36,060 nt of DNA from a virus. Below, piece by piece: positions 14,584 to 21,926 of the stretch. The DNA is taken from the IMG/VR virus record IMGVR_UViG_3300045999_010344, positions 1 through 36,060 of that record. One strand, 5' to 3'. The notes beneath the pieces are model-generated. The model was not told where the DNA came from and made no database searches. It saw only the letters and a list, made by a program, of their open reading frames with translations. The number at the start of each line of letters is the position of its first letter. Within the stretch, counting starts at the first letter, position 1. The translations under genes and the position numbers were made by a program.

Positions 14584-15521
14584 TCAACTCAATTCGGCGC
14601 CAATCATGCCAATAATTGCCGCAGGCATTTTTTTATGTTTTAAGGCCCATTCAAGAGCCTCTTTTGTTGAAGCCTTCATTGTGGACTGACTGTCTCTTAG
14701 CTCATATGGCAAAAATTGATTAAGCTTAACCTTATTCGACTTACTTCCAAGGGCAGACATCACAACAACACCAAGTTTTGCTGTTGAAATACTGGCAGCG
14801 TTTATTCTTGCCTGTAAGGTTTTATAACCATGCTCTAAAACATCTGATAAAAGCTTGATTGGCAGTTTATTGAAATTTGCTGCATGAAACAATGGATCAG
14901 AGAGTTCAAGCGAAGCCACTTGGCAATAGATCTCGGTCCAGTCAGTGGCATTGTCAATCGCATAATCGGCCTGCCGCGCAAGCCGATCAATTAGTTTTTT
15001 TCAGCATCCTCTTTCTGTTCTTCGGTTTTTTGGTCTACCTGTACAATTTGCCCTTGATCTTCCAATGCCATAAAGGCTTCAATCTCTTCAATCCATGCCT
15101 TGGGAAGCTTTTCAGTGTCTTCAACGCTCCAGTCTTCAGTTGGCACCCATTTTTTACCGCTTAAAATTTCGCCGCGATTACGGAAAAATATAGTAGCCAA
15201 TTCTCCAAATTGAGTTTTGGCGGATGGCATTGTCGACATCAATAAGACAATTTCTTCTAGATATTCAGAATAAATAGTTTGACTTTCGTCGCCGCTCTGT
15301 AAAAGCGCAAATGCTTCTTCTTGGTCAATTTCCTTTTCTGCGGCAATTTTTTTTGCTAATGCAATGACACGCAAAGTAAATTGAGCTCTTTTCTGTCCTT
15401 GTTCTTCACGCTTCCAAGCTTCTTCTGCTAACCAACTCCCATACTTTCTCAAGCGCAAAGAATTGCCAATGTTGACATATTCTGCATTGCCAAGCAGGAA
15501 AATACTGGAATACTTGCTCAT
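14584..15521 (-). CDS. tail assembly chaperone, -1 frameshift fusion (GT-like), 312 aa
   Basis: Joined product read from ATG 15521 to the slippery site at 15000-14994 and then in the -1 frame to the stop at 14584-14586: 176 residues plus 136 more. In lambda-like siphoviruses a -1 frameshift between G and T makes a chaperone that loads onto the tape measure protein and recruits tube subunits. Here the -1 frame continues without a stop from the heptamer through NATDWTEIYCQVASLELSD to the end. The extension itself has no convincing independent start: the only early candidate is GTG 14919, without a Shine-Dalgarno. Gene order (tube protein, this pair, tape measure) fits. The shorter unshifted product is listed separately. 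Confidence 0.8.
14965..15000 (-). promoter_or_regulatory. programmed -1 frameshift signal, A AAA AAC plus hairpin
   Basis: On the minus strand the zero-frame codons GAA AAA AAC TAA contain the heptamer A AAA AAC (15000-14994), in the X XXY YYZ form with the stop immediately after. After a six-base spacer, 14987-14978 pairs with 14974-14965 (ten pairs including one G-U, loop GCG). Slippery heptamer, short spacer and stable hairpin form the textbook arrangement. The -1 frame then stays open for 136 codons. Confidence 0.85.
14991..15521 (-). CDS. tail assembly chaperone, unshifted form (G-like), 176 aa
   Basis: Reading straight through the slippery site gives a 176-residue acidic, helical protein ending QKEDAEKN at TAA 14993-14991. 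The short form would be made in excess over the fused form, as for lambda gpG versus gpGT. No enzyme motif is seen. Helical segments (RVIALAKKIAAEKEIDQEEAFALL) and the acidic tail fit chaperone-like proteins of this class. The downstream frame lacks its own ribosome site, which is why I treat the two frames as one gene. Confidence 0.8.
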   Translation of the reverse strand: MSKYSSIFLLGNAEYVNIGNSLRLRKYGSWLAEEAWKREEQGQKRAQFTLRVIALAKKIAAEKEIDQEEAFALLQSGDESQTIYSEYLEEIVLLMSTMPSAKTQFGELATIFFRNRGEILSGKKWVPTEDWSVEDTEKLPKAWIEEIEAFMALEDQGQIVQVDQKTEEQKEDAEKN

Positions 15522-20987: not shown

Positions 20988-21292
20988 TCTTCGTCGTCGT
21001 CGCCGCGTAAATCACTAAGCTGGCTTTCAATGCCTTCCATGATGTAAGCCTTGGCCATTGCCTCAATTTCAAACGTGAGAAATTTGGTGGGATCAAAATG
21101 AGGGTCGGGCTTTTCGTAGACGCTCATCACATAAATGTGAGTTTCGTCTAAGCGACCATTTTTAAAGCATTGCTTTTCAACCAATTCCCACTGCGAAGTA
21201 TTGCGATGTTCGTTGGCAGAAAGAATAGCAAGCGCCTTTAATAGACCAATGCCTTCGTCTTCTTCTTCGATGACGCGCACGTATTCGCTCAT
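20984..21292 (-). CDS. small acidic protein of unknown function
   Basis: A 102-residue protein (MSEYVRVIEEEDEGIGLLKA) with a predicted mixed alpha/beta middle (ETHIYVMSVYEKPDPHFDP) and a very acidic end (LSDLRGDDDED). I do not recognise it. Its ATG overlaps the stop of the frameshifted DUF6496-type gene (ATGA), which suggests coupled translation, and it converges with the XRE gene. An accessory head protein or small regulator is possible, but nothing in the sequence decides. Confidence 0.5.
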   Translation of the reverse strand: MSEYVRVIEEEDEGIGLLKALAILSANEHRNTSQWELVEKQCFKNGRLDETHIYVMSVYEKPDPHFDPTKFLTFEIEAMAKAYIMEGIESQLSDLRGDDDED

Positions 21293-21926
21293 TGGTCCTT
21301 TTGACGATTTTCTACCATCTTAATAATGCGATTTGCCCAAGACCTACCGGCATCGCCTCCCCATAGCAGCCAAGCGATATAACCAGCGTCATTTTCTCCG
21401 CCACTTTTATTCTTTTCATGACGAGAAAAGAATGCAGCCATACGTTTAATTGTGGCGAAGCTTACGGCTCCGCCACCGGCTAGATCGCTTGCACGAGCCA
21501 CGCCGCTGCCAATGCCTTGCTTGCCCGCCTCTTGCGTGGTCAGGCCACCCTTGCCATACTTCTTGCGAAGCTCAAGGCCACGACGGGCTGCGCTTCTAAC
21601 GCCAGTAGGAGGGGAGAAGCTTTCTGCGTCGCCCCTCAGCGCTTTTTTCCGCAGGAACTGTCCTCCATCTCCTCTTCTTCTTCCATGCCCTCCTCTTCTT
21701 CCTCTTCTCCAATGAGAGTCATGAAATAATTGTCCCAATATTCATCGCTCTTTCCCTGGCGGCTCATGCCGGCCTCGGAGAGGGCAATTGCAATGGCCTG
21801 CTTCCGATTCTTCACGGGCTTTTTGTCGCTGCCCTTAAGAGTGCCAGCTTTAAACTCGCGCATTACTTTGGCCACTTTGGTCTGCTTTTCTTTCTTGGTC
21901 ATGGCATTAATGCTTTTCTTAAGCAT
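21289..21926 (-). CDS. DUF6496-like protein fused by -1 frameshift to a second conserved domain (212 aa)
   Basis: Joined product: ATG 21926 in zero frame to the heptamer at 21648-21642, then the -1 frame to the stop at 21289-21291 (95 plus 117 residues). The first part is the DUF6496-like module; the second contains VRSAARRGLELRKKYGKGG and IKRMAAFFSRHEKNKSGG, then IAWLLWGGDAGRSWANRI, a domain I have seen in phage head-region proteins, function unknown. The second frame has an ATG at 21738, but its first 30 residues are just the acidic GAA/GAG repeats read out of frame and do not look like protein. I therefore infer that the second domain is reached by frameshifting. A sequencing error or true mutation is the main alternative. 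Confidence 0.65.
21609..21666 (-). promoter_or_regulatory. probable -1 frameshift signal, A AAA AAG with internal Shine-Dalgarno and hairpin
   Basis: Minus-strand zero-frame codons GGA AAA AAG CGC TGA contain A AAA AAG (21648-21642), the heptamer used in E. coli dnaX. An SD-like GGAGGA (21666-21661) lies 12 bases upstream, as in dnaX. Four bases downstream, 21637-21632 (GAGGGG) pairs with 21614-21609 (CCCCTC), and an inner AGAA/TTCT stem can extend the hairpin. The -1 frame then runs 117 codons into a conserved-looking domain. Confidence 0.7.
21636..21926 (-). CDS. DUF6496-like small basic/acidic protein (unshifted form, 96 aa)
   Basis: The zero-frame product is 96 residues. Residues about 15-55 match the DUF6496 pattern: KVAKVMREFKAGTLKGSDKK then NRKQAIAIALSEAG. 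It ends in a strongly acidic tail of Glu runs and DSSCGKKR. The family is common in phages and bacteria but its function is not established. The ATG at 21926 lies two bases after the glycosyltransferase stop; Met9 is an alternative and neither has a clear Shine-Dalgarno. The last codons carry the frameshift signal described separately. Confidence 0.7.
   Translation of the reverse strand: MLKKSINAMTKKEKQTKVAKVMREFKAGTLKGSDKKPVKNRKQAIAIALSEAGMSRQGKSDEYWDNYFMTLIGEEEEEEGMEEEEEMEDSSCGKKR

Follow-up and report, generated by a model that had tools for sequence, protein, structure and literature searches.

Do a DUF6496-type gene and the out-of-frame domain that follows it encode two separate proteins, or are they one gene joined by a ribosomal frameshift? 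The question is raised by a locus on the minus strand of an IMG/VR virus record, whose whole 36,060-base stretch was analysed (hereafter the window). A programmed −1 frameshift had been proposed here by the original prediction. The DUF6496 open reading frame (ORF; 21636–21926, −) encodes 96 amino acids from ATG 21926 or 88 from ATG 21902, with an acidic tail and then CGKKR at the C-terminus. Its assignment to the DUF6496 type corresponds to a real Pfam match, the profile PF20106 scoring 38.4 bits against a curated cut-off of 24 (E = 1.6e-9). The 3′ end of the ORF reads GAC AGT TCC TGC GGA AAA AAG CGC TGA, so that the predicted heptamer A_AAA_AAG (21648–21642, −) indeed lies in the 0 frame near the stop, as GGA AAA AAG CGC TGA. 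The TGA (21636–21638, −) follows one sense codon past the heptamer, and this spacing is equal in most relatives. In-frame heptamers of the A/G/C_AAAG kind are rare, with only two in the ~10,500 codons of the window's genes.

Translation of the −1 frame gave the extension of 117 residues that had been described (21289–21642, −). It consists of an ALRGDAE linker and a domain starting at SFSPPTGV (hereafter domain 2), for which a phrog_2859 match was found; relatives conserve this extension. The start listed for domain 2, TTG 21738, proved to be the Glu-rich stretch read out of frame, as had been supposed. The product sizes of 96 and 212 residues first given are arithmetically correct, but 88 and 204 residues are more likely, because relatives start at residue 9, ATG 21902 (MTKKEKQ...), and share sequence 5′ of that ATG. 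The first eight residues of the listed ORF, MLKKSINA (start 21926 versus 21902, −), are probably upstream sequence. Domain 2 is followed on its 3′ side by a 102-residue ORF, a DUF2213 head maturation protease, a cement protein and the major capsid protein. The gene sits in the head module, two genes ahead of the DUF2213 protease.

To collect relatives, we used domain 2 and the DUF6496 protein as queries against viral contigs, scanned genome contigs once and added Synechococcus phage S-CBS4. More than 150 distinct loci were obtained and classified by script; one domain 2 query was a hand-made variant rather than a natural sequence and served only to reach further relatives. Both arrangements that homologues might show were found: the two parts are out of frame with a heptamer in 129 loci and continuous in 25. 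Wherever they are out of frame, the offset is always −1 and X_XXA_AAG is present (129/129); no locus with separate frames has lost the heptamer. All 129 carry the bacterial-type −1 frameshift arrangement, X_XXY_YYZ in the 0 frame before the 0-frame stop, although these loci are related and their counts not independent. The heptamer lies exactly 27 nt ahead of the first codon of domain 2 in 128 of the 129 loci and 30 nt ahead in the remaining one. In two loci (L133 and L167) the heptamer is in place, but farther upstream the DUF6496 part runs in a different frame; these loci may be decaying copies or contain sequencing errors. The C-terminus of the short form exists in two versions (seen in the DUF6496 ORFs of L182, L187, L203, L218 and L254), an acidic Glu-rich tail ending in SCGKKR or an added module ending in GEKRCKAYLxTVRKNKxKK, both of which end at the same slippery site.

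Three heptamers are exchanged at this position: AAAAAAG (91 loci), GGGAAAG (28) and CCCAAAG (10). The encoded pair thereby varies between KK, GK and PK while the slippery heptamer stays constant; because the three encode Lys-Lys, Gly-Lys and Pro-Lys, the protein sequence cannot explain them. From codon use in the window, such heptamers would be expected in 5%, 2% and 3% of KK, GK and PK pairs, respectively. As a control within the DUF6496 gene itself, a conserved Gly-Lys pair located 36 codons upstream varies without constraint at its synonymous sites and retains a heptamer in 1 of 57 relatives. The site is thus conserved beyond coding needs, pointing to selection for slippage. The same heptamers have been described as "the three best V_VV.A_AA.G heptamers" in E. 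coli (PMC4066793; PMC5009743), a ranking measured in that species and not in cyanobacteria. Their natural exchange at one position amounts to an evolutionary confirmation of the E. coli efficiency ranking. The second in-frame heptamer of the DUF6496 ORF, G_GGA_AAG at codon 57, was also considered as a shift site and rejected, being kept in 1/57 relatives and leading into a −1 frame that stops after two codons.

The same collection bears on two explanations in which ribosomes need not slip. The site is an A run in a metagenomic contig, and an error of sequencing or assembly in this homopolymer might have split a single gene. However, the arrangement is repeated in 129 distinct loci from many samples and independent contigs and in an isolate genome, also with heptamers that are not homopolymers; we rejected such an error on these grounds and regard it as practically excluded. 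Alternatively, transcriptional slippage on the A6 run could vary the number of As in the mRNA and yield the fusion directly. An A6 run can in principle slip in this way, and one relative (L061) is in frame because its run has seven As, while the similar L175 has six and is shifted. Six As are short for slippage by RNA polymerase. Moreover, 38 of the 129 loci have GGGAAAG or CCCAAAG, with no run beyond a few bases, at the same position and with the same hairpin, which makes transcriptional slippage very improbable.

The predicted hairpin (21609–21637, −) comprises an outer stem GAGGGG/CCCCUC and an inner helix, and begins 4 nt 3′ of the heptamer, where the original prediction had placed it (−15.6 kcal/mol, z = −2.45). 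Among 81 distinct sequences, the outer stem pairs are kept in 87–100% at most positions. One stem pair alternates between AU, CG and UG, with 29 two-sided changes in the 81 rows, and further compensatory changes were seen in L092 and L243. The covariation score exceeded those of 500/500 shuffles and of every slid register control. A fold of −8 kcal/mol or lower was obtained in 122 of 127 loci, the other five having no stable hairpin. The hairpin decays in the in-frame fused relatives, with a median energy of −8.1 kcal/mol compared with −17.1 kcal/mol in the shifted loci. Likewise, the Arg codon in the 5′ arm is AGG in 96/101 shifted versus 10/25 fused loci (Fisher P = 3e-9, indicative only, since the loci are related). 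A downstream stimulatory structure is present.

The SD-like GGAGGA (21666–21661, −), a possible upstream stimulator, is found 12 nt 5′ of the heptamer as originally reported. Matches of at least 5 nt, located 6–14 nt upstream, occurred in 39 of 90 distinct loci versus 24.2 ± 2.7 in synonymous shuffles; 41 of the 90 had none. An SD-like element as part of the design is therefore only partly supported by the comparison. Of the three-part, dnaX-like design that had been put forward, the heptamer and the hairpin hold up, whereas the SD-like element is found in only about half of the loci.

We then considered whether domain 2 could be made as a separate protein, through its own start codon or through ribosomes re-initiating at the overlapping stop. 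The isolate Synechococcus phage S-CBS4 carries the arrangement (L160, 12873–13525) and is annotated in just this way, as two genes, gp018 and gp019, the latter with a GTG start; a start codon also lies between the heptamer and the domain in 8 of 127 loci. Yet the other 119 have no ATG, GTG or TTG there, and the window, like many relatives, has GTA or GTT at the annotated GTG position, which lies within the domain. Separate proteins would also leave the conservation of the heptamer and the covariation of the hairpin unexplained, and 25 relatives encode both parts in a single continuous ORF. Independent expression of domain 2 is thus exceedingly improbable, and gp018 and gp019 should probably be annotated as one frameshifted gene with the junction RKK/GLRGDAE.

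Because the site is conserved, three slippery heptamers are exchanged, the hairpin covaries, domain 2 mostly lacks a start of its own and in-frame fusions exist, this head-module gene of cyanophage-like siphoviruses almost certainly undergoes −1 programmed ribosomal frameshifting. This confidence applies to the frameshift itself; its role is rated separately and much lower. The tests set beforehand (an independent start of the second frame, loss of the heptamer in relatives and an altered A run) all favoured frameshifting. Most ribosomes on the DUF6496 gene would stop at the TGA one codon past A_AAA_AAG and release the short protein. A fraction would slip back by one base, both tRNAs re-pairing on AAA AAA, aided by the hairpin ~4–5 nt downstream and, in some lineages, perhaps also by the upstream SD-like sequence. 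The slipped ribosomes would read 117 more codons through domain 2 and produce a DUF6496–domain 2 fusion. We infer that it is the ribosome that slips in the native host.

In the 25 fused relatives, the two parts form one continuous ORF with no working heptamer. When the four states (A, G, C and fused) were placed on the domain 2 tree, at least 25 changes were needed and the split between shifted and fused took 9, although many branches of this tree are weakly supported and recombination may inflate such counts. When only branches with good support are counted, the G state still requires at least 7 changes and fusion at least 3. A search for a separate DUF6496 gene in 25 contigs, fused and shifted, gave one match in each and no second gene, although the contigs may be incomplete. 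The fused lineages seem to manage without a separate short form. A tentative reading, which we consider possible but less probable than not, is that the frameshift site works as an evolutionary switch for a head-module protein: lineages would repeatedly alternate between making short plus long products and making a single in-frame fusion. In this way the head-assembly ratio of the short form to the protease- or portal-associated long form would be adjusted and at times given up. The in-frame fused relatives provide a natural test of the purpose of the short form and of the frameshift ratio.

The partners of domain 2 in other phages indicate where it may act. Domain 2 precedes an S78_2/XkdF protease in Limnohabitans phage DC31, an S78 protease–capsid fusion in Roseobacter phage CRP-811, a DUF2213 protease in L319 and a capsid domain in L164. 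It lies within an annotated prohead protease in HGTV-1 and within the portal protein in HRTV-4, and is a standalone protein in PaBG. An AlphaFold model of the fused relative L037 (pLDDT 84.5) was confident for most of domain 2. Searching the PDB by sequence and by the fold of this model retrieved nothing significant, the best hit being a weak helix-turn-helix resemblance (E = 1.8). A search of a viral fold library with the same model retrieved phage proteins, many of them bearing the names prohead protease or XkdF and others the name portal or a different one. Since the partners of domain 2 in other phages include prohead proteases, portals and capsid proteins, a role in head assembly is the likeliest. 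Its neighbours and domain partners suggest, at about even chances, that the frameshift fixes the proportion of short to long form during head assembly, close to the DUF2213 prohead protease. In an Actinomycetota MAG contig (L323), domain 2 occurs with a poly(A) polymerase head domain (PolyA_pol) and a HAD domain, an RNA repair-like combination. Domain 2 therefore also occurs outside head proteins.

Most of the conserved −1 frameshifts known in tailed phages belong to tail chaperones, and the present comparison strongly supports a phage −1 frameshift outside the tail-chaperone gene. Among open-licence PMC papers, we found no mention of DUF6496 and, in the phage frameshift literature, no title on the DUF6496–domain 2 gene. 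The mechanism is already known; new, as far as could be checked, would be the gene that uses it, the head-module location and the natural swapping among heptamers. This head-module frameshift appears to be widespread in aquatic viruses, in a large group of cyanophage-like viruses. Current gene calling reports two hypothetical proteins in place of one gene and misplaces the start of the second.

Several known systems resemble parts of this design. E. coli dnaX (tau/gamma) shares with the site in the window the heptamer A_AAA_AAG, a downstream hairpin and an upstream SD-like element. In contrast, the dnaX shift shortens its product whereas the DUF6496 shift lengthens it, the SD-like element occurs in only about half of the DUF6496 loci, and the proteins are unrelated. 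A −1 frameshift in the major head protein of Lactobacillus phage A2 was reportedly described by Garcia in 2004. It likewise affects a head-module gene and gives a minor extended form, but in A2 the capsid protein itself is extended. The lambda G/GT tail assembly chaperone frameshift and its relatives are said to have been treated by Xu, Hendrix and Duda in 2004. As in G/GT, a gene of a phage structural module undergoes a −1 shift near the end of the short ORF, yielding a minor form with a C-terminal extension, and G_GGA_AAG is among the heptamers used. Unlike G/GT, our locus joins DUF6496 to a phrog_2859-like domain in the head module, two genes ahead of the DUF2213 protease. The DUF6496 gene precedes this protease and does not lie between the major tail protein and the tape measure, the position of G/GT.

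A second −1 site was noted in the window, A_AAA_AAC at 15000–14994 (−), associated with ORFs at 14991–15521 and 14584–14919 (−). The ORF two places ahead of the tape measure gene ends in GAA AAA AAC TAA, and the −1 frame (KKLIDRLARQADYAIDN...) runs through the next ORF. By its sequence and position, this site is probably the canonical tail assembly chaperone arrangement.
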